Shown here: one piece after another, positions 11,833 through 48,337 of the stretch | Layout: the number at the start of each line of letters is the position of its first letter | Numbering within the stretch: position 1 is the stretch's first letter | NCBI GenBank assembly: GCA_020850835.1 | Contig: JADZDX010000033.1 | Coordinates: forward strand, 1-64,000 | Origin: Fimbriimonadaceae bacterium | GTDB taxonomy: Bacteria; Armatimonadota; Fimbriimonadia; Fimbriimonadales; Fimbriimonadaceae | Direction: 5' to 3' | DNA: 64,000 bases | Made by a program: the position numbers and the translations under genes | The notes under the pieces: generated by a model | What the model was told of the DNA's origin: nothing | Database searches by the model: none | The model's input: the letters and a program-made list of their open reading frames with translations, nothing else

Positions 11833-13710
11833 GTGTTGACCACGCGGACTGTTTGCGCTGCGACCCTTCTAGCCTTTGTTGGAGCTTGTTGGGCTGATTC
11901 CCTCTTTGTCTATAAGCAGGAACGACGTCTCGTCCCGATAAACGACCGTTACATCGTTGCCGGTGGGCAATTCTCGCTTGAAGGTGAGGCCCACCTTCCG
12001 GGCTACCGCCTTGTGCGAAGCCAAAATGCGCTCCAAGCCATTTCACTAGCCCGCCCTGCACGCGGTCAGTTCGTTACCAACGCTTATGTAAATGCGTCTG
12101 GCGGCATGATGTACCCGACACGGGACATCTATATCGCTTTCACGAGCGATGTTAGCCCGACCTCCGCGTTGGCAATCGTGAGGCGTGAAGTCGGGGGCGA
12201 GATCCTCGAAGTCAATGCATCGGGGCTCCCCAATACCCTCCTCCTCCGAACTCCTTGCCGTACCGGTGCCGAAGTCCTCAGGTTAGCAGCCCGAATGGCG
12301 AAGCGAAAGGACACCCGTTACGCCTTCCCAAACATGGTGATGTCGGTTGAGCCTGCCTTCATCCCAAATGACCCGCTCTTTGGCGACGAATGGCACCTTA
12401 GGAATACGGGACAATCTGGCGGAACCTCTGATGTTGATTTCGATGCCGACGATGCCTGGGACGTCACGACTTCCAATCCAAGTATCAAGACGCTGATCAT
12501 GGATAACGGCGTGGACGGGAACCATCCAGATCTGGTCCTCAGCGCGGGGGCAACGTTTACGGGTGAACCTGGGAATGGAACCCCCTTCACAAGCTCGGAT
12601 AACCACGGCACGCCGGTTGCCAGTTGCGTTGCCGCGACCATGAACAACTCCCTCGGCGTGGTGGGGGTGGCACCGGGATCGCTCGTGATCTCCGCAAAGC
12701 CATACTCGTTCATCTCGCCCGACTGGTACACCGAAACAAGTTGGCTCCTCGCCAGCCTTGACTTCGCATACAGTCAGGGTGCCCGGATTACCAATAACTC
12801 GTGGACGTACGATGATGTAATCCCGCCCTTTGACGACAAGCTCACCGCCATGTTCAATGCCGGGATGGTCCACTTTGCTGCGGCTGGCAATGCCAACACG
12901 GCCACAGTCTCCTATCCGGCTAGTGCACCGAATGTGGTTTCAGTGATGTCAATCAACCGAACTGGTGCCCGCTCAAGCTTTAGCTCCTACGGTCCTGGCA
13001 TTGACTTTGCTTCCCCGGGCTCCGCGATCGTCATGACTGATCGTGTTGGCAGTCCCGGCTATGCCACCGGCGACTACGTCACGGCGAACGGCACGTCATT
13101 CGCCTCGCCCAACCTTGCCGGACTAACCGCTCTTGTCCTTGGCGCCAATCCGCTTCTCAGTTCAGACGCTGCCATAACCTGTCTGACTGGCTCCGCCATT
13201 GACCTGGGGACAACGGGCTACGATACTACCTTTGGGAATGGTCTACCCAATGCACCCCAAGCGGTCCAGCTGGCCCTCGGCTTCCGATGGAACGGCACGA
13301 TTACCTTTGGAGACCTAAATGGCCCCGCCCCCACAAGCGCCTCCTTCTTCTTTGATCTCCCAGACGTGTTAAGAGACCGGACGACTTCGGTCACCCTTAG
13401 TGCCAGTGCGTTCGATCAGATTGCACCAGATGGTCAATTTGAAGTCTATGCGTCCTGTCGCCCGTGGCTACGCAAGAAACTAACCCTCAACAATGGTGGG
13501 ACCGTGGTCAGTCAATCCTTCTCCATGACCAATGGCGACGCCGATGGTTCTGGTGAGGTGGACGCCGCCGACATTGACTTTGTCATTCAATGGTTTGGCA
13601 CTGCGCCGACTCAGGGTGAGGAGATGTTCGCTGACCTAGACCGCTCTGGTGAGGTGGATGCAGCCGATATTGATGTCGCCATCAGTAACTTCGGCGCAGT
13701 TGGCGACTAG
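11833..13710 (+). CDS. Secreted S8 subtilisin-like serine protease with C-terminal dockerin-like tail
   Basis: Subtilase motifs LIMDNGVDGNHPDL, DNHGTPVAS, NGTSFASPNLAG; C-terminal GDADGSGEVDAADIDFVI and DRSGEVDAADIDVAI repeats; GTG start. Confidence 0.93.
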   Translation: MLTTRTVCAATLLAFVGACWADSLFVYKQERRLVPINDRYIVAGGQFSLEGEAHLPGYRLVRSQNALQAISLARPARGQFVTNAYVNASGGMMYPTRDIYIAFTSDVSPTSALAIVRREVGGEILEVNASGLPNTLLLRTPCRTGAEVLRLAARMAKRKDTRYAFPNMVMSVEPAFIPNDPLFGDEWHLRNTGQSGGTSDVDFDADDAWDVTTSNPSIKTLIMDNGVDGNHPDLVLSAGATFTGEPGNGTPFTSSDNHGTPVASCVAATMNNSLGVVGVAPGSLVISAKPYSFISPDWYTETSWLLASLDFAYSQGARITNNSWTYDDVIPPFDDKLTAMFNAGMVHFAAAGNANTATVSYPASAPNVVSVMSINRTGARSSFSSYGPGIDFASPGSAIVMTDRVGSPGYATGDYVTANGTSFASPNLAGLTALVLGANPLLSSDAAITCLTGSAIDLGTTGYDTTFGNGLPNAPQAVQLALGFRWNGTITFGDLNGPAPTSASFFFDLPDVLRDRTTSVTLSASAFDQIAPDGQFEVYASCRPWLRKKLTLNNGGTVVSQSFSMTNGDADGSGEVDAADIDFVIQWFGTAPTQGEEMFADLDRSGEVDAADIDVAISNFGAVGD

Positions 13711-18691: not shown

Positions 18692-19660
18692 CTAAGACGT
18701 CTTCTTACGCCGTCGCAACAAAGCCAGAACCCCGGCGCTGAGGGCAATCATCGTGCCCGGCTCGGGCGCCACGATGTTCGCAGCGCGCCATCGTCCGGTA
18801 GGCATCAGAACCCCGTTCAGGGTGTAAACGCTCGATACGCCTCCGTTCGGATTCACATACTCGCTGATATACGTGCCGGTGCCGGAGAGGTTAGTGCCAA
18901 CGACAAAAAACCCGGTATGGCCGGCGACGACCGTTGCGGTGGAACTGGTGGAGGTCGCATATCCCGTAACGATGGGGGCCGTCGTCGTGGAGGACGCGCC
19001 CATGTTGGCATCCAGATTGACACGGAGGAGTCTGGTCGAAGCGTCGCTTGCGCGATAGGCAAGCATCCCGCTACCGTTGACAAAACTCATACCATTGACA
19101 TTAGAGCCGGCAAGGTAATTCGCGGCCGCCACAAGCATGATGGTCGGGCCGACTTGCGTAAAGGACGTCGTATCGAAGTTTGCCGCCACGAGGTCTCCCG
19201 ATGAATTCAGACCAAGGGCGATAATGCGCGCGTTGCCATACTGTTGGACCGCCATCGTGTTGACAATTGGTCCCGCGGTGAAATTTCCAAGATAACCAAG
19301 ATTGGCATCGTAACGATAGACGAAACTGGATCCAATCGCCTCGAAAACGCGCGAACCGTCATGGTTGAGTGAGATTGCGCCATCGGGGAAAGTCACGGCG
19401 TTGAGCCGTTCCCCGGTGCTGTAATCGAACTTGACACCGCCCTGATTATTGGTCGAGTAGGCGAATTGGGAGCCGGACTTTGCCGCGACGGCCTTAGACG
19501 CCGAATGCACATTGAGCGACCCAAGCTGGACCTGGTTGATCGGATCGAACCGCAAAATGCGCCCCGTAGCTTGGTCGGGCAGAAGCATCAGGTCGAATGA
19601 AGCGTGAGCCACCCCACCCAGGACGATCGTGAAAGCAACAAGGCAAGAGCGCATAGCCAA
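18692..19660 (-). CDS. PEP-CTERM sorting-domain protein
   Basis: N-terminal signal peptide; C-terminal APEPGTMIALSAGVLALLRRRKKTS; WD/beta-propeller-like body. Confidence 0.88.
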   Translation of the reverse strand: MAMRSCLVAFTIVLGGVAHASFDLMLLPDQATGRILRFDPINQVQLGSLNVHSASKAVAAKSGSQFAYSTNNQGGVKFDYSTGERLNAVTFPDGAISLNHDGSRVFEAIGSSFVYRYDANLGYLGNFTAGPIVNTMAVQQYGNARIIALGLNSSGDLVAANFDTTSFTQVGPTIMLVAAANYLAGSNVNGMSFVNGSGMLAYRASDASTRLLRVNLDANMGASSTTTAPIVTGYATSTSSTATVVAGHTGFFVVGTNLSGTGTYISEYVNPNGGVSSVYTLNGVLMPTGRWRAANIVAPEPGTMIALSAGVLALLRRRKKTS

Positions 19661-20844: not shown

Positions 20845-22122
20845 ATGAAAACTCTTACCCTGACATCGTTGGCGGTCAGTCTCGCTGGTATTGCCTCGGC
20901 GCAATCGGTCGTGCTCATGCCCGATAGCGCTTCCGCCAACAACCGAATCGTCACCTTCAGCCCTGTTGATGGAAGCTTGATCAACTCAAACCTCTTCGGC
21001 CTCGCTTCGGCGACAAACGCAACGCCAGTGTCGGCTATCGCGGTCGGCAGCGAGATTTGGGTCAGCGAGCAAGTGGGCGACAAAATCTCGCGCTATGACA
21101 GCACGGGTACTTTTCTAGGTGCGGTCGGCGTCGGTGTACTTGATAATTGCCGCGGAATAACGTTGATCAATGGAGTCGTCTATGCGGCGAATGATGGCAA
21201 CACTTTTGGTGCGGGCGACACACTCGCCCGTTTTGACACCAATGGCAATCACCTCGGAAATTACTCAACAGCCGGTTTGAATACGAGCCCGTTTTACGTG
21301 CTAGAGCACAATGGGACGCTCCTGACTTCGTCGGCTTCCCCCAACGATGATGTCCACCGTTTCAACACGGATGGCACTTCCGCCGGGACATTTTATAATG
21401 GGGCGAATAGTTTTGCCGAGCAGATGGCTATTGCACCCAACGGCAATGTCATGATTGGCTGGTTCACTACGGGGAAGGTGGCCTACCATGATCCCTCGAC
21501 CGGGGCCGAGTTGTCGTCGTTCCCGGCAAGCGGATGCCGCGGCGTTTACCAACTATCGAACGGAAACGTTCTCTGGTCCAACAGTTCGGGAGCCCATGTT
21601 TACGACGTGAACTCTGCAACCTCAACGACCGTGTACCCTACAACGGGAGGCCGCTTCTTTTCGCTCATGGGGTCGGCAGCAACGCAAAACCTCTCGGGCA
21701 ACATCATTCTTAACGATACCGTCGCGACCTTTGCCGCCACGCGCTCCATTTCATATGAAGTCAAGCAGGGGGCAACAACGGTAGCTTCTGGCACGATCTC
21801 TGCGAACAGCCCGCTGACCGCGTTCAATATCTCTCTTTCTCCAAGCTTGACGGGAGATGCTGAAGTAATTCTCGAAGGATCTTCATTCCTCGTTCGCAAG
21901 GTCCTGCTGACCTTGACGGGAAGCAACCAGACACTCGGCAATACGACCATGGTCAACGGCGACCCCGACGACTCTGGTGAGGTTGATGCTGCGGATATCG
22001 ACTTGGTGATTGCTGATTTCGGATCCTTTGCGGTTGGCGCGACCGACGCAGACGTCAGTGGCGAAGTTGATGCTGCGGATATTGACATTGTCATTGCGAA
22101 CTTCGGCGCCGTAGACAACTAA
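20845..22122 (+). CDS. Secreted beta-propeller-like protein with C-terminal dockerin-like tail
   Basis: Signal peptide MKTLTLTSLAVSLAGIASAQ; C-terminal GDPDDSGEVDAADIDLVIADFG...DVSGEVDAADIDIVIANFGAVDN. Confidence 0.82.
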   Translation: MKTLTLTSLAVSLAGIASAQSVVLMPDSASANNRIVTFSPVDGSLINSNLFGLASATNATPVSAIAVGSEIWVSEQVGDKISRYDSTGTFLGAVGVGVLDNCRGITLINGVVYAANDGNTFGAGDTLARFDTNGNHLGNYSTAGLNTSPFYVLEHNGTLLTSSASPNDDVHRFNTDGTSAGTFYNGANSFAEQMAIAPNGNVMIGWFTTGKVAYHDPSTGAELSSFPASGCRGVYQLSNGNVLWSNSSGAHVYDVNSATSTTVYPTTGGRFFSLMGSAATQNLSGNIILNDTVATFAATRSISYEVKQGATTVASGTISANSPLTAFNISLSPSLTGDAEVILEGSSFLVRKVLLTLTGSNQTLGNTTMVNGDPDDSGEVDAADIDLVIADFGSFAVGATDADVSGEVDAADIDIVIANFGAVDN

Positions 22123-22241: not shown

Positions 22242-23192
22242 ATGGAAACCTCCTCTGTTGCTCAATTTGCCCAAGCAATCATTTCACAATTAGATCAGGT
22301 AGTTAGCGGAAAACCTTTGGCGACCCGCGATGCTGTCCTTATCCTGCTTTGCGAGGGGCATTTGCTGATTGAAGATGTGCCAGGCGTTGGTAAAACGACC
22401 CTAGCCAAAGCTCTCGCCAAGTCCATCGGCGGTAGCTTCTCGCGTATCCAATTCACCCCCGACCTCCTGCCCGCCGACGTTACCGGGAGCCCGATCTACA
22501 ATCAGAAGGAGTTGACGTTTGAGTTTCGCCCTGGACCGGTTTTTGCCAATGTATTGCTCGCCGACGAAATCAACCGAGCCACCCCAAAGACACAAAGCGC
22601 CCTCTTGGAGGCCATGGAAGAGCGGACGGTTACAGCAGACGGCGAGGAACGCTCCTTGCCCCATCCCTTTATGGTGATCGCAACCCAGAACAATGTTGAA
22701 ATGAGCGGAACCTATCCCCTCCCGGAGGCCCAAATGGATCGGTTCTTCGGGCGGATTTCGTTGGGTTACCCCGATCGCGAGGCCGAAACCAAGATGCTTG
22801 AGCAACAGCGCGAGACTCGCCCGGTTGACCATCTGGAAGCCATCGTCCAGACTGCGGAACTTCTAGAAGCCCAGCGCGCCGTTCGCTCGGTTCACATAGA
22901 CAGCAAACTTCAAGACTACATCGTTTCCTTGATTCGGGCAACCCGTGAGCATAGCCACGTTGGTCTGGGGGCATCCCCGCGGGCTTCACTGCACCTCCAA
23001 CATGCGGCGCAGGCCCACGCCGCCTTGCAGGGGATGGACTTCGTAGTTCCCGATGACGTCAAGGCTGTTGCAACCATGATTCTCGCCCATCGCATCATTC
23101 CCCTTGGCGAAACGCGAAGTCGAGGCGATGCGGCGAACGATATCATCGCCAGCGTGCTCAATTCGGTACCCACTCCACTTCCCGTTCGCTAA
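22242..23192 (+). CDS. MoxR family AAA+ ATPase
   Basis: EDVPGVGKTTLAKALA Walker A, LLADEINRATPKTQSALLEAMEE Walker B/sensor. Confidence 0.95.
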   Translation: METSSVAQFAQAIISQLDQVVSGKPLATRDAVLILLCEGHLLIEDVPGVGKTTLAKALAKSIGGSFSRIQFTPDLLPADVTGSPIYNQKELTFEFRPGPVFANVLLADEINRATPKTQSALLEAMEERTVTADGEERSLPHPFMVIATQNNVEMSGTYPLPEAQMDRFFGRISLGYPDREAETKMLEQQRETRPVDHLEAIVQTAELLEAQRAVRSVHIDSKLQDYIVSLIRATREHSHVGLGASPRASLHLQHAAQAHAALQGMDFVVPDDVKAVATMILAHRIIPLGETRSRGDAANDIIASVLNSVPTPLPVR

Positions 23193-23201
23193 ACTGAAAT
23201 C

Positions 23202-24371
23202 GTGAGGAACACCGCCAGCCTAACGCTGATCTTCGCCAGCTTCTTTCTGGCGGTGGTGGCGGTGTTTGTCAATTCACCGGCCCTCTTCTACATGGCGACC
23301 GCCATGATCGGCACGATCGTTGCCGCTAAACTTCAAGCACGATTCGCGGTTCGGTCTCTCAAGTTCACCCGTACGGCGCCGGCGATGTCGGTCATTGGCG
23401 AACCCGTCACTGTCTCTCTGGCCGTTGAAAGCGAGAGTCGTTTTACTCGCCCTCTACTGCTCATCGAGGATCAGTTGCCTAACCGAATGGTTAAAGACTG
23501 GGTCCGCTTTCCCGTGCCGGTGGCCCCAAGCTACCGGCAACCAGTTCAGATTCAATACCAAATCCGCCCGCTACGACGCGGCTTATTTAAGTGGTCCGAT
23601 GTGAGCGTTCAGGGGACTGATGCGCTCGGCCTGAGCTCGGCAGAACTGCTTCACCCGGCGGGCCAGACTGAAATGAAAATCTTGCCCGCGCCTATCCCGT
23701 TCGAGCTCAATCTGACCCTGCTTCATGGCGCCGGCTACGAAGACACGACCACGCAGCGTAACTCTGCGAACAGTCTGGATGCGCGTGGAGTGCGGGAGTT
23801 TGCGTCGGGCGATCAGGTGCGCCACATCCATTGGCCCAGTACGGCAAGAACGAGCCGCCTCATGGTTCGAGACTTTGAGTCTCAAGCTGGCTCAAGAGCG
23901 ACCGTCCTGATCCAGCGGGCACCCGGGACTGACCTAGGCGAGCAACATTCCTCGCTTGATCAGATGTGCGGACATGCCGCCTTTTTGATTGAGCAACTCC
24001 TACCCAGGTGTAGCCACATCCGGCTCAATGTTCCCACCGACTTTGTCTCGCCCAACAACCCCTTATTGCCTTTCTTGGATGCCCTTGCCGAACTGCGAGC
24101 CGACGGCCCGTCGCTAGCGGCCGAGCTAAATCATGCCCTGACAGATCCGGACGGCCCCGGACGCCTCTATCTGTTCTTGAGCGTGCAGGATCCAGACCTG
24201 CCCAGTGCCCTACGTCAAACCGAAGCACACTCTGTGCAAGTCTTTGTATATCGCGCTGAGGCATTTGCTCAGACCGCACGGGCAACTAGCGCTGCCGACC
24301 CTACCTATATCCAGAGGCTTCGGGAGAATGGAGCGGCGATCCAGATTCTCGACAGCGGAGGTGTTCGATGA
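23202..24371 (+). CDS. DUF58 domain protein
   Basis: REFASGDQVRHIHWPSTARTSRLMVRDFE motif; adjacent to moxR-type gene. Confidence 0.9.
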   Translation: MRNTASLTLIFASFFLAVVAVFVNSPALFYMATAMIGTIVAAKLQARFAVRSLKFTRTAPAMSVIGEPVTVSLAVESESRFTRPLLLIEDQLPNRMVKDWVRFPVPVAPSYRQPVQIQYQIRPLRRGLFKWSDVSVQGTDALGLSSAELLHPAGQTEMKILPAPIPFELNLTLLHGAGYEDTTTQRNSANSLDARGVREFASGDQVRHIHWPSTARTSRLMVRDFESQAGSRATVLIQRAPGTDLGEQHSSLDQMCGHAAFLIEQLLPRCSHIRLNVPTDFVSPNNPLLPFLDALAELRADGPSLAAELNHALTDPDGPGRLYLFLSVQDPDLPSALRQTEAHSVQVFVYRAEAFAQTARATSAADPTYIQRLRENGAAIQILDSGGVR

Positions 24372-26407
24372 AACGAGATCCTCTCTCTCTCGGAGCTACG
24401 GACTATCTTCTGAGCCTCATCTCGGCCATCTCGGTTCTGCTGTCAGCCGGCTACAGCGTGCGAAACATTGAAGCTGGTTTCGTGTTCACGGGCCTTACAA
24501 TCCTCGGACACCTGGTCTCCGCCTTTGGCCCGAGGATTCAGAGGACTTGGCACCGAGTTTCGCCCGACAGCATTATCTTCGCGGTGGTCGCCGCCGGCTC
24601 CATTGCATTCGCCGGCCACCTCAACCAGTTCCTTCCTAACATGGGGTTCCCGCTCCAATTGATGTATACGGCCGGCCTATGTTGGGCGATTGCCTTAGGA
24701 AGTTTCTTCGCTTGGCGTGACTCCACCCTCCTCTTTCTGGGCGTCCCATCGATAGCCCTCTATGGCCTCGTCGGCGCATTTGATACCTTCCCCGGCGCGC
24801 CGTTCATGTTCTTTCTGTTCCTCGTGACAACCGGAATGATCTTTGCCCGGAGCCACTTGCGGCACATGCTGCGGCTGGCGTCCTCGGCTGGAGAACCGAA
24901 CCTGGAACGCCTACGCCGCTACGAATGGAAAAGCCTAGCGGGGCCCGAATGGGCGATGGTTTCGGCGGTCGGTATTGTGGTCTTTAGCGCCCTTGGCGCT
25001 CCCTTCATCCGAAATACTGTTCAAGGCGTCTCCGCCCCTCTGCGCATTCCTATTCGAGCCACCCCACCCACAACCGCCTCCAGTTCAGGGATCGGTTCGG
25101 GTGCCCCCAACCCTAATCGTGATAGCCTGCGGGTTGGATCCGGACCCTATGGTCGCCCCAGCCATAGCATCGTTGTTTACGCTCGGATGGATCGCCCTCA
25201 TTACCTTCGCGGCGAAGCCTTTTACCGTTTTGTGGGTAACAGGTGGTGGGCGGTCACCATGAATTCGGCTCCGATTCCCGCGAGTGATGGCGTAAGTGAT
25301 CTGCGAGGCCGGAATCCCGAGACGCTCCTTCCGAACCTGCGCCCCTTTCCTTACGAACTGAGTTCAGCAACCAATCACCTTCCCGGCCCCTATTTCCCAG
25401 GCATTCCGGCCCAGATTCAGTTTGGTAACTCGCGCCGTGTAAATCTTCGTGAAGACGGAATTATGACGACGGGCATTGACAGTTTGGGAGCCCTCATTCG
25501 AGGCGTCTCATTCGAACCAGACCTGTCAAACCCAGGCCGCGCCATCGAGCCTCCATATTGGCGCGATTCGTTCGACGAAGTCAGCCTTTCATTTCGGGCC
25601 AAAGAGTTGGTAGAGAGAACTCTGCGAGGGGCATCGACCGACTATGAGAGAGCCGAACGCCTTCGCTCCCTTGTCGCCAAGACGATCACCTACAACTTGC
25701 AAGCGGCGATGGTGCCCGAAGGTGCCAACGTTGTTGACAACGCCCTTTTCGAATCCCGTCAAGGCTATTGCGACGTCTTCGCCACGACTCTGGCGATCCT
25801 CGCCCGGCACGCAGGACTGCCCTCTCGCGTGGCCTCCGGTTATTTGGTCAGCGACGAATCCAGAGGCCGTGGCTTCTACCGAATTCGAGAGTCGGACTAC
25901 CATATCTGGACGGAAATCTATTTTGAGAAAGCAGGTTGGGTCACCTTCGACGCCACCGAGGGTGCCAATGAAGTTGAAGGGTACGGACGCGGAGAGGAAT
26001 GGCGCCCACCGCCTACGTGGTGGCAGTCCAGTTGGAACAACACGGCGGCCAACGTCCTTATCGGCGCGAGTGTGATCTGCATGGCCGGGGTCTTCCTGTG
26101 GGATCTCGTCCGTCGGCGCGCACCGAGACTTGGCAAGGTGCTGATTGTACGGGATGAGCGGCAGGCGGCCGCCGCTTCGGCTCTGGAAGCCCTCGAGCGG
26201 GCGACACGCACCCCACGCCGATTTGAAGAAACGTCCACCGAATATGCGTCAAGATTACACCGGATGTTCCCCCAAGCCCAGATTGACCAGGAAGGACTCG
26301 CTAGTGCCATTGATCGCCTCCTTTTTGCTCCCGCAGGAGTCCTTGACGCTGCAGCAACCAAGACTCTGGCGAAGGCAACCGCGAGCCTTAGGAAGGTCAA
26401 GAGTTGA
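24368..26407 (+). CDS. Transglutaminase-like (TgpA-type) membrane protein
   Basis: N-terminal TM helices; ESRQGYCDVFATTLAILARHAGLPSRVASGY and ESDYHIWTEIYFEKAGWVTFDAT (Cys-His-Asp triad). Confidence 0.92.
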   Translation: MKRDPLSLGATDYLLSLISAISVLLSAGYSVRNIEAGFVFTGLTILGHLVSAFGPRIQRTWHRVSPDSIIFAVVAAGSIAFAGHLNQFLPNMGFPLQLMYTAGLCWAIALGSFFAWRDSTLLFLGVPSIALYGLVGAFDTFPGAPFMFFLFLVTTGMIFARSHLRHMLRLASSAGEPNLERLRRYEWKSLAGPEWAMVSAVGIVVFSALGAPFIRNTVQGVSAPLRIPIRATPPTTASSSGIGSGAPNPNRDSLRVGSGPYGRPSHSIVVYARMDRPHYLRGEAFYRFVGNRWWAVTMNSAPIPASDGVSDLRGRNPETLLPNLRPFPYELSSATNHLPGPYFPGIPAQIQFGNSRRVNLREDGIMTTGIDSLGALIRGVSFEPDLSNPGRAIEPPYWRDSFDEVSLSFRAKELVERTLRGASTDYERAERLRSLVAKTITYNLQAAMVPEGANVVDNALFESRQGYCDVFATTLAILARHAGLPSRVASGYLVSDESRGRGFYRIRESDYHIWTEIYFEKAGWVTFDATEGANEVEGYGRGEEWRPPPTWWQSSWNNTAANVLIGASVICMAGVFLWDLVRRRAPRLGKVLIVRDERQAAAASALEALERATRTPRRFEETSTEYASRLHRMFPQAQIDQEGLASAIDRLLFAPAGVLDAAATKTLAKATASLRKVKS

Positions 26408-32467: not shown

Positions 32468-34327
32468 TCAATCGTTCGTCAGCCCGAAGCTACTGATCAC
32501 CGCGTCTATATCGCCGGCATCCACTTCCCCGCTTCCATCCGCATCGGAGAGAAAGTTCCCTACGAACCCAAAATCGGTGATGACTCGATCAATATCGGCG
32601 GCATCAACTTCGCCGGAACCATCAATATCGCCACCCGGCAACGTGAAAGTGCCTAGATCTTGCTGACCCGCAATAATGTTAACTTGCTGGTCTCGCCGTA
32701 GGTACGATGGTCCGGTCCAAGTCAGGATGGCGGGCCCCACATTGGCAGGGGACAGAGGAATGTTAAAGGGGGCTTCAGCCCCAGTGGCCAGAATCGTCCC
32801 CGATGCCAGTTTCGATGCTCCACGTCGAAGTTCATAGGAAATGCTCCTGGGAAAGCCGAACACCTCCGTGCCGCCACCGAGAACGAGGGTGCCGTTCAGG
32901 CTCGCCTGTGGCATGGGTGCTGAGGAGTACAAGGAGACGGTGATACCCGACATGAGGGCCTCAACCGCCCCTGGCTCAAGGTTTGCTACCTCGTCTGACA
33001 TCTCAAATCGATACAGGCTAGAGGCTGGAATCGTGGAGCCGATCAATGATCCGATGAGCGGACGCATGCCCACAGCCTGAAGTGTGGCCACATTCTGAAT
33101 CCCAGGAAATGGCTGAAGATAAGCGACCTTTCCCGGATGAGCAGAGTTGGTGATGGCGATCAAGGCGTCGGCCGCCCAGGAATCAGGAGCAACCCTCTCA
33201 TAGGAAGCGCTAATGGTGGCGAAGCTAGCAATGCACGAATTGAGCTGGGCAACTTCAGAATAGGCCGTGTTGTCGGGGTCTGGATATGGGTCAGCGAGGT
33301 TGGCCACGCCCGGAATGGTAAACGCTTGAACGGGGAAGGACGGCGATCCAGCCATGATTTCAAATGTGATGCCGGTGCCAATCGCATCCGCTCCAGGTGC
33401 ATCGTCATACGCTTCGAAAGTTTCGACTTGCCAAGTTGATCCGCTCGGTAGGGCCACTCCAGTTCCAGCTTTTGATATCCATGGTCTGAACTCTCCGGCC
33501 GGGACCGAAATGAGGGTGAAACTACTGTTCTGATGCGACAGTTGAAAATCAAAGCTTAAGCCCGGCAGGGCACTATTGACCAAGTGAATGCGAGCCTCAC
33601 TAGCCCAACTTCCAGCGATCTGCGCCGATAACTGTCCGCTCAACAGTCGAACTCCGGAACCCATATACTTGGGTTGGTCAAGGGGCGACAGCCCAGCAAT
33701 CAGCGAATTGTCGGCAGAACCTCGCTCACCGCCGAAGTTGACCGGGCCAGCTAGGCTGATGGTGGACACGGCCGTTCCCGCTGATGATCCCGGCATATCA
33801 AACCGAATCCCCTGCCCGAATGCATCGATTTCAGTCGAACTATTGTCGTCATTGTCGTAGCACTCAATCATCCAAGTCGAACCTTCAGGAACAACCATCC
33901 CCGTCTCCAGAGTCGTCATGTTGCTCCACGGAGCCGAACCGCTATTCCCAAACGAGCGAACGACTAACGTAGATACCGATACCTCGGTCTTCGTTGAGTT
34001 TAGTCCCGCGGTCACGAAAGCCACGAGCCCTGGCCAAGCATCATTGGTCAACTTGAACCCTAAGTCGGCAAGGCTCGTTTGCGGCAAGTCCGGATTCTCC
34101 CAAAAGTCGCCCGCGACCAGATTAATCGTGTTGGACAAGGCATAGCCGGTCGGCACCGTAACCTGAACAGTGGTGTTAAACGTTGCCGCTGGACTAATAC
34201 CGTCGTTTCGCAAGTTCCCCGGGCGCGCGCCAAAGCTTGCCATCGGAATGACGACAGATTGACCATGGCAAACTGACGAAAGGGCCAGCACCAAAAAAAG
34301 CAGGCTCCCGGGGGATCGGATTACCAT
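32468..34327 (-). CDS. Secreted repeat protein with C-terminal dockerin-like tail
   Basis: Signal peptide, about three ~140 aa repeats, C-terminal GGDIDGSGEVDAADIDRVITDFG...DADGSGEVDAGDIDAVISSFG. Confidence 0.8.
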   Translation of the reverse strand: MVIRSPGSLLFLVLALSSVCHGQSVVIPMASFGARPGNLRNDGISPAATFNTTVQVTVPTGYALSNTINLVAGDFWENPDLPQTSLADLGFKLTNDAWPGLVAFVTAGLNSTKTEVSVSTLVVRSFGNSGSAPWSNMTTLETGMVVPEGSTWMIECYDNDDNSSTEIDAFGQGIRFDMPGSSAGTAVSTISLAGPVNFGGERGSADNSLIAGLSPLDQPKYMGSGVRLLSGQLSAQIAGSWASEARIHLVNSALPGLSFDFQLSHQNSSFTLISVPAGEFRPWISKAGTGVALPSGSTWQVETFEAYDDAPGADAIGTGITFEIMAGSPSFPVQAFTIPGVANLADPYPDPDNTAYSEVAQLNSCIASFATISASYERVAPDSWAADALIAITNSAHPGKVAYLQPFPGIQNVATLQAVGMRPLIGSLIGSTIPASSLYRFEMSDEVANLEPGAVEALMSGITVSLYSSAPMPQASLNGTLVLGGGTEVFGFPRSISYELRRGASKLASGTILATGAEAPFNIPLSPANVGPAILTWTGPSYLRRDQQVNIIAGQQDLGTFTLPGGDIDGSGEVDAADIDRVITDFGFVGNFLSDADGSGEVDAGDIDAVISSFGLTND

Positions 34328-46462: not shown

Positions 46463-48337
46463 TTATTGGTCGTCCGAGTTGCCGAAGTTCGCGATGACAG
46501 CATCAATGTCTGCTGCATCAACTTCACCCGATACATCAACGTCCGCCAATGGATTGCCGACGCCGCCCGGCCAATTCTGACCGAAGTTGGCAATGACATT
46601 GTCAATGTCAGCAGCATCGACTTCGCCCGAATCATCAACGTCACCGTTAAACATCAACGTATCTGGAACCGTCTGAGCGCTACCCGTCAACGTCAAGCTA
46701 ACGATCTTTGTCAGGAACGAAGCACCGCTGAACGTGATCGTCGCTGGACCAACCGCGTTGCTTGTGTTGATGCTATAGGGCATCGAACTCGCATTCGCAT
46801 TGATCGTGCCCGATGCAATCGTCGCCAAGCCCTGCTTGACTTCGTAGTTGATCGAACGAGTCAGGCTGTTGGCAAAGATCGTGTCGCCCAGCAACAAGTT
46901 GCCGGAAAGACCCGAACCGCCGCCACTACCGATTGACGTCGTAATGTGAAGGCCCATTGAGCTAGTTGTAGCCGTACCCGTCGAGGTGAAGCCAAAGCCT
47001 CCGTTGAACTGGCTGTTATACTTGCCTATTGCAAGGTAGTAAGTACCCGGCGACAAGGTAAAGGGATCCGGCGTACCGCCGTCGTAGCCCGGACCAGCCG
47101 GATCGCCGCCCGTTCCGATCAGAATATATGACTGGAGACCCGTGTTGGAGTCGTCGTCATCATCGGTAACGACATCCCCGGTATCCGTGTACATGCCGAT
47201 CTCTGTATCGTCGGTCGTCTCACCCGTCCAGATACTCAACCAATCGCCCAGGTTTCCGTCCACATTACCGACGGTGAACTTGTACCACTTCGCCTTGCCG
47301 GCTGCGATGGAGTTAATCGTGGCCAACAGAGGATTGCTGTTCGTCACGGTTCCCAAATCAATCGCCAAGGTCGGCGTGTCGCCAGGACCGGGACCCGGAG
47401 GTGCGGTCGTGGTCAAAAAGTCAAAGCTGATTCCATAACCGACAGAGTCCGCGCCGGGATCGTCGTCATACGACTCCGAACACTCAACCGTAAAAGTTGA
47501 ACCTACTGGAAGGATTGCCGCGACGCCTGGATTCGTAGTCCAATCCAAGGTTGTGCCAGGCACCAAGGTAATGGACGAATAGGTCCCGCCAGTGGCCGGG
47601 CTGAGGACATAGATGCCAGGAACAGCGCTGTTCTCAACATTGAGCCTAATCTCGCCGGCGTAAGTTAAATTTGCATTCGACTCAAGGAGGCCACCATTCA
47701 AGGTGACATTATCCCTGTAGTACTTTGCTGTGACCACCGGATTGATCCCAGTGAGGACCGTATTATCAAGGCTACCCACCGCGCCGCCAAAATTCACCGG
47801 ACCATCAAACGAGATATCTCCCGGCGGGGCCGTTGGCGGGGGAGGAGGCGGGGTATCCGAGAGGAAATTGAGGTCAATGTCAAAACCCTGCGAGTCGGCC
47901 GCCCCTGCCGTATCATCGTAAGACTCGTAGCATTCAACCGTCCATGTCGAGCCCGCGGGCAGGATCGCCGCGACATGCCCGTTGGTCTTCCATGTTCGAA
48001 TCTCGCCGACCGTAAAGTTAAAGGTCGTGTAGCCACCGGTGGTGTTGGTGAAATTAGTCACGTAAGCACCCGGTACTGCGCTGTTCTCAATTCGGAAACA
48101 AGCTTCACTTGGATACGTGATGCCACCCATAGAAACGAGATAACCACTGTTAATGGTCACATCGGGACCGAAGTACTTCGCCGCCGCGAGGGGGTTGAGC
48201 CCCGTAAGCGTGGTGTTTTCGGGAACCCCCACTGCGCCACCAAAGTCCACCGGGCCCGCGACCGTGATGTCGCCAGCCAAGGCAAAGGACGACAACGCCG
48301 TGAGCCCCATGGCAAAAAGACAAGATTTAATTTTCAT
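46463..48337 (-). CDS. Secreted repeat protein with pre-peptidase-like region and C-terminal dockerin-like tail
   Basis: Signal peptide, two ~140 aa repeats (aa 23-162 and 174-311), polyproline linker, PPC-like IAAGKAKWYKFTV segment, tail GDVDDSGEVDAADIDNVI...DVDVSGEVDAADIDAVIANFG. Confidence 0.82.
   Translation of the reverse strand: MKIKSCLFAMGLTALSSFALAGDITVAGPVDFGGAVGVPENTTLTGLNPLAAAKYFGPDVTINSGYLVSMGGITYPSEACFRIENSAVPGAYVTNFTNTTGGYTTFNFTVGEIRTWKTNGHVAAILPAGSTWTVECYESYDDTAGAADSQGFDIDLNFLSDTPPPPPPTAPPGDISFDGPVNFGGAVGSLDNTVLTGINPVVTAKYYRDNVTLNGGLLESNANLTYAGEIRLNVENSAVPGIYVLSPATGGTYSSITLVPGTTLDWTTNPGVAAILPVGSTFTVECSESYDDDPGADSVGYGISFDFLTTTAPPGPGPGDTPTLAIDLGTVTNSNPLLATINSIAAGKAKWYKFTVGNVDGNLGDWLSIWTGETTDDTEIGMYTDTGDVVTDDDDDSNTGLQSYILIGTGGDPAGPGYDGGTPDPFTLSPGTYYLAIGKYNSQFNGGFGFTSTGTATTSSMGLHITTSIGSGGGSGLSGNLLLGDTIFANSLTRSINYEVKQGLATIASGTINANASSMPYSINTSNAVGPATITFSGASFLTKIVSLTLTGSAQTVPDTLMFNGDVDDSGEVDAADIDNVIANFGQNWPGGVGNPLADVDVSGEVDAADIDAVIANFGNSDDQ

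Follow-up and report, generated by a model that had tools for sequence, protein, structure and literature searches.

C-terminal X-module-dockerin tails of Fimbriimonadaceae secreted proteins carry a genome-specific code

In this study, we closely examined a 64,000-nucleotide stretch of DNA (here called the window) from the draft genome of a Fimbriimonadaceae bacterium (Armatimonadota, Fimbriimonadales). A preliminary description had proposed that four proteins encoded there share one C-terminal architecture, namely a beta-rich segment followed by two copies of GDxDxSGEVDAADIDxVIxxFG close to the C terminus. Translation placed all four tails in frame, each with an Ig-like segment, both repeats and four to five residues after the second repeat (Table 1). 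The strands, which had not been given before, are plus for P0001 and P0002 and minus for P0003 and P0004.

Table 1. Features of the four tail proteins in the window
Feature	Position	Strand	Evidence
P0001, secreted subtilase with C-terminal X-module-dockerin (XDoc) tail	11833..13710	+	Peptidase_S8 E 6.7e-41; Dockerin_1 26.7 bits, above cut-off; signal peptide
P0001 Ig-like X-type module	13288..13530	+	A1 profile match 13285-13707; AF2 pLDDT 90.0, pTM 0.82, strands; XDoc fold matches
P0001 dockerin repeat 1, DADGSGEVDAADIDFVIQWFG	13537..13599	+	sequence; Pfam Dockerin_1
P0001 dockerin repeat 2, DLDRSGEVDAADIDVAISNFG	13633..13695	+	sequence; Pfam Dockerin_1
P0002, secreted, body propeller-like by eye, XDoc tail	20845..22122	+	signal peptide; body without significant Pfam match
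P0002 Ig-like X-type module	21679..21954	+	A1 profile match 21679-22119, E 2.2e-52
P0002 dockerin repeat 1	21961..22023	+	sequence
P0002 dockerin repeat 2	22045..22107	+	sequence
P0003, secreted repeat protein, XDoc tail; body homologous to P0004	32468..34327	-	translation, signal-peptide rule, body comparison
P0003 Ig-like X-type module	32633..32911	-	A1 profile match 32471-32911
P0003 dockerin repeat 1	32567..32629	-	sequence
P0003 dockerin repeat 2	32483..32545	-	sequence
P0004, secreted repeat protein, XDoc tail	46463..48337	-	translation, signal-peptide rule, body comparison
P0004 Ig-like X-type module	46646..46912	-	AF2 pLDDT 92.9, pTM 0.86; profile match 46469-46912
P0004 dockerin repeat 1	46580..46642	-	sequence; AF2 helix 111-119
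P0004 dockerin repeat 2	46481..46543	-	sequence; AF2 helix 144-152

The bodies had been described as unrelated. The tail is the sole common part of P0001 and P0002, but the bodies of P0003 and P0004 are homologous and have repeats in common (33% identity over 245 amino acids, E 9e-33), which makes three body types instead of four. A Pfam search of the P0002 body, described as beta-propeller-like, gave nothing significant. A gene for a PEP-CTERM protein adjoins that of P0002 (window 18692-19660, minus strand), and genes for a MoxR-type ATPase, a DUF58 protein and a transglutaminase-core protein lie in a row at 22242-26407 on the plus strand, a common arrangement.

The tail comprises about 150 residues, with a seven-strand Ig/transthyretin-like module followed by two dockerin F-hand repeats. 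In the AF2 model of the P0004 tail (pLDDT 92.9, pTM 0.86), seven strands precede two loop-helix units, and the Ig-like module packs on the N-terminal side of the dockerin both here and in the P0001 model (pLDDT 90.0, pTM 0.82). Foldseek searches against the PDB returned type II XDoc chains of C. thermocellum or A. cellulolyticus as the ten best matches of each model, with alignments of about 155 to 163 columns and TM scores of 0.66 to 0.77 against single dyads. The two models, built separately, matched the same XDoc structures first, in agreement with the earlier claim that the upstream segments are alike. Clostridial type II XDoc chains were also the only strong PDB or fold matches across the whole tail.

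At the sequence level, a profile of the tails matched 2b59_B with an E value of 4.5e-5, and a wider profile (A2) did so with 1.6e-15 over positions 39-150, that is, from inside the Ig module to the end of the dockerin. The crystallized X-module is seven-stranded and resembles the Ig-like module of carboxypeptidase D (PMC5141474), and the Pfam family CarboxypepD_reg matches six Ig modules of the tails. Pfam Dockerin_1 was found in 37 of 40 tails at E<0.1, some of which, including those of P0002 to P0004, fall under the curated cut-off. The F-hand of about 22 residues is duplicated and bears calcium-ligand residues, with invariant Asp at loop positions 1 and 12, Asp or Asn at position 3 and Ser or Asp at position 5 in most copies. 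Since fold matches and profile homology extend across both modules, the tail is an XDoc dyad by fold and homology.

Analysis of the genome (a 2.15-Mb draft in 119 contigs, 88% complete) revealed about 49 tail proteins by open reading frames and about 48 separate loci by tblastn with the double repeat as query. A codon-degenerate pattern hit 58 sites and its reversed control none. Two motifs are present in 45 of 48 tails, compared with one motif match among 9600 shuffled tails, so the motif pair is not due to chance. Nearly all of these tails end four to five residues beyond repeat 2, and a simple signal-peptide rule detected an export signal in 33 of the 38 tail proteins whose 5' end is intact. 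Recognized bodies include subtilases, matrixins, reprolysin, trypsin, GDSL lipase, GSDH, NHL, laminin-B and Ig domains; the majority have no Pfam match, and no glycoside hydrolase family was found by Pfam among 45 bodies. The preliminary description was prepared to give up its sorting-module idea if only a few proteins in the genome carried the tail or if the upstream segment differed among the four. With about 49 copies and one upstream fold, neither is the case.

Dockerin and cohesin form a lock-and-key pair, and the XDoc shape anchors cellulosomes. The earlier observation of dockerin-like repeats without a visible cohesin holds beyond the window: profile searches with cohesin PF00963 found no match in the own genome or in 41 relatives. 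Relatives with a name are metagenome-assembled genomes (MAGs) of Fimbriimonadaceae SJ46 and 'Chthonomonas' MAG-280. Across 291 Armatimonadota genomes, PF00963 was found in 33, which indicates that the search works in this phylum, and 48 genomes were XDoc rich, defined as at least 10 scored tail matches out of a maximum of 13 scored in each. None of these 48 contained PF00963 (expected overlap, 5.4; naive P of 0.0018, with kinship ignored). Cohesin and XDoc-rich groups were likewise disjoint at the family level, but there they are few. We therefore rejected a canonical cohesin as the partner; absence by HMM leaves room for a cohesin fold too diverged to match. Among the cohesin-bearing genomes, none of them XDoc rich, one encodes several cohesin matches in a single open frame of 2197 amino acids (G044:C218), reminiscent of a scaffoldin.

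The tails resemble the type II XDoc dyads of clostridial scaffoldins (CipA/ScaA, CipB; PDB 2b59, 5g5d, 5k39, 5m0y, 4u3s) in that a seven-strand Ig-like X-module directly precedes a C-terminal two-F-hand dockerin and the profile match is collinear, although identity is about 18 to 21%. Clostridial XDoc dyads occur on few scaffoldins, whereas here they occur in another phylum on about 50 proteins (proteases, hydrolases and repeat proteins), with neither a recognizable cohesin nor a cellulosome. A cellulosome has a cohesin-bearing scaffoldin, while PF00963 is missing from the own genome, the 41 relatives and the XDoc-rich genomes, and its dockerins sit mainly on plant-wall-degrading enzymes, unlike the recognized bodies among the 45 analyzed here. 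With type I dockerins (PF00404), the tails share a duplicated F-hand and near-identical repeats; they differ by the Ig module in front and the lack of a detectable cohesin. The hypothetical planctosome of freshwater Planctomycetes comprises dockerin- and cohesin-type modules on secreted peptidases and is not directed at cellulose degradation (PMC6461901). The tails examined here likewise join a dockerin-type module to secreted peptidases in a setting other than cellulose degradation, but the planctosome has identifiable cohesins and the system described here has none.

In type IX secretion, C-terminal domains are read by a secretion machine. By analogy, the tail could be an export signal that an outer-membrane machine reads, and perhaps cleaves, with no permanent anchor. 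Its strict C-terminal place on about 50 different bodies fits such a role, and a single machine would likewise impose one code. However, no such machine was found. In regions around tail clusters of six genomes, the one common secreted non-tail neighbor was a protein of 1151 amino acids, which lies between tail genes in two species (L375:10690-14145, minus strand; orthologue at L369:7935-11417, plus strand). It is exported, resembles an outer-membrane barrel, ends in LRLDYQLRF and matched nothing significantly in Pfam, NCBIfam or the PDB; we regard it as an undescribed conserved envelope protein. As all 41 relatives searched, members of the same order, encode it whether they have tails or not, it was dismissed as a tail-specific partner. 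PEP-CTERM/exosortase systems also mark many secreted proteins of a genome at the C terminus, but their signal is a short motif with a transmembrane helix and basic residues, whereas the tail is a folded dyad of 150 amino acids that ends in FG plus about four mostly acidic or polar residues. PEP-CTERM proteins occur in 41 of 41 relatives, tailed or not, which argues for their independence from the tails, against mutual exclusion of the two and against the export reading, which we consider unlikely. In the own genome, about 30 PEP-CTERM matches stand beside the roughly 49 XDoc proteins, and two C-terminal systems thus coexist.

In clostridial dockerins, calcium ligands occupy loop positions 1, 3, 5, 9 and 12, and recognition residues occupy positions 10, 11, 17, 18 and 22 (PMC4582956). 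We carried the recognition positions over from this clostridial numbering and not from a complex of a Fimbriimonadaceae tail. Comparison of the repeats revealed that each sampled genome is homogeneous and that the code switches between related species. Within the own genus, the code is DAADIDxVIA in the own genome (G000) and two congeners, GSSDFDxVVA in G002, and GPxDFSxLA or GPxDFAxLA in G003. Within the own family, G018 has xIGDYAxLS, and G156, of the same genus as G018, has xSDDFDxLV. Other genera add more codes, with NIxDFLxLR and close variants in g45, TLFDFGxLV or the close TLLDFG and SLLDFG forms in the sampled g92 genomes, and DDADLLxVLF in f2 genomes.

Divergence between genomes peaks at position 17 (1.58 and 1.90 bits in repeats 1 and 2) and position 10 (1.70 and 1.76 bits), followed by positions 9, 13, 14 and 11, with positions 1 and 12 invariant. 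Of the clostridial recognition positions compared, 10, 11 and 17 agree with the code and 18 departs from it. Positions 9 and 13 follow the code as well, the former being a listed calcium ligand and the latter possibly a core residue. Nearly every copy in G002 and in G003 has Gly at position 9, and calcium coordination may thus differ there. Overall, residues at positions 10, 11, 13, 14 and 17 hardly vary among the tails of a genome and are exchanged as a set from one species to another within a genus. In mesophilic clostridia, dockerin recognition residues are reported to have stayed largely unchanged through speciation (PMC5748583), which makes the turnover in these tails unusual. The calcium-loop residues are the most conserved of the loop, as expected of a plain calcium-binding cap that stabilizes the protein and has no specific partner; such a cap, however, leaves unexplained why non-ligand positions are near-identical in all copies of one species but change in its neighbor, and we regard it as highly improbable.

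To separate gene from genome, orthologues were assigned as reciprocal best matches on bodies alone; these bodies are partial for many loci, which were cut 1.5 kb upstream, and the genomes are incomplete (88% for the own genome, 70% for G003). In 14 orthologous pairs of G000 and G002, identity was 45% for bodies, 35% for Ig modules and 26% at the recognition positions. Paralogues within these genomes reached 26% for Ig modules and 84% at the recognition positions, where they exceeded orthologues in 14 of 14 pairs (with the Ig module, the order is reversed, at 35 versus 26%); this contrast is somewhat optimistic, as the five positions used (10, 11, 13, 14 and 17) were picked after the divergence profile of the same genomes. 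Comparison of orthologues with random cross-genome pairs is independent of that choice and gave 26 versus 26, 5 versus 6, 21 versus 21 and 0 versus 0% at the recognition positions, with 93 versus 92% in the same-code control, G000 and G004. For the Ig module, the corresponding values were 35 versus 26, 32 versus 25 and 31 versus 25%; in the distant G018 pairs, this orthologue advantage was gone as well. Bodies and Ig modules of orthologues thus keep gene-level similarity. Independent expansion of one founder tail in each genome was ruled out, since orthologous bodies and Ig modules carry swapped codes.

Uniformity within genomes might also arise if gene conversion homogenized the 3' ends of the genes, with no functional partner involved. 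Similarity is indeed higher within than between genomes, and identical residues use the same codon slightly more often than expected from body codon usage (0.446 versus 0.391 in G000; 0.539 versus 0.454 in G018). Apart from this small excess, which remains, most of the synonymous signal has been lost, which makes recent conversion unlikely as the main cause. Nearly saturated synonymous sites, an adjoining Ig module that was not homogenized, and divergence focused on certain positions, with calcium ligands 1 and 12 invariant, all argue against conversion, which makes a purely conversional origin very doubtful.

A code that is the same in about 50 dispersed genes and changes in all of them together is the pattern predicted for tails that answer to a single partner. 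Were the partner common to all copies, any shift in it would oblige every tail to follow, which would yield a genome-wide code. Judging from these sequence patterns, we moderately favor the explanation that one shared, separate, genome-specific partner, different from any recognizable cohesin, captures the whole tail set. The tail proteins would first be exported by Sec, and the calcium-loaded dockerin helices would then attach to a single shared partner, located on the outer surface or in an extracellular scaffold, bringing together proteases, GDSL hydrolases, repeat proteins and adhesin-like proteins. With two nearly identical repeats, either helix may dock (dual mode); the Ig module may stiffen the dockerin, as X-modules do. 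Given that these genomes encode no recognizable cohesin, such a partner would be a highly diverged cohesin or have a different fold. The surface location is suggested by the export signals and, by analogy, by the behavior of clostridial XDoc dyads. More tentatively, a receptor of non-cohesin fold might capture this secretome of about 50 proteins, with receptor and all tails switching specificity together between congeneric species.

Alternatively, the tails could bind each other, through dockerin-dockerin or dockerin-X-module contacts, and form an extracellular network in which no separate receptor takes part. Self-recognition would account for the absence of cohesin, and it predicts the same code pattern because all copies are forced to match. 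Solved XDoc dyads work otherwise, however, and bind cohesin (PMC5141474), and we think homotypic assembly improbable. The preferred reading of a separate common partner is in line with the sorting, anchoring or assembly role first suggested for the tail. A common attachment or sorting tail is well supported by the roughly 49 copies, their extreme C-terminal place, the signal peptides and the genome-wide code, and the data point to an attachment partner that is undescribed and common to the set. Missed at first were the nature of the beta-rich segment and dockerin as one known dyad and the species specificity of the code.

The evolutionary pattern of the code is a new result of this analysis. 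Among the papers searched, none joined dockerins with Fimbriimonas, and the few combining dockerin with Armatimonadetes or Armatimonadota have, by title and abstract, topics other than the dockerins of this phylum. Here, a phylum carries a dockerin key at about 50 copies per genome, all re-toothed between close species, while the known lock is missing. Both the identity of the lock and the way in which a single receptor and its dozens of unlinked ligands alter their specificity together thereby become directly testable. Protein assembly could also profit from a new orthogonal plug-and-socket set that offers many natural specificities.

Two departures from the code were observed. One orthologue group (L053 on G000:C32, L233 in G002 and L251 in G003) has a divergent dockerin that is off-code in all three congeners; it serves as a natural control and either stands outside the system or has another partner. 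Furthermore, locus L134, at a contig edge of the G003 draft (G003:C94), carries the G000-type code SGEVDAADIDAVI, probably due to contamination of this draft by a close relative of the own species.
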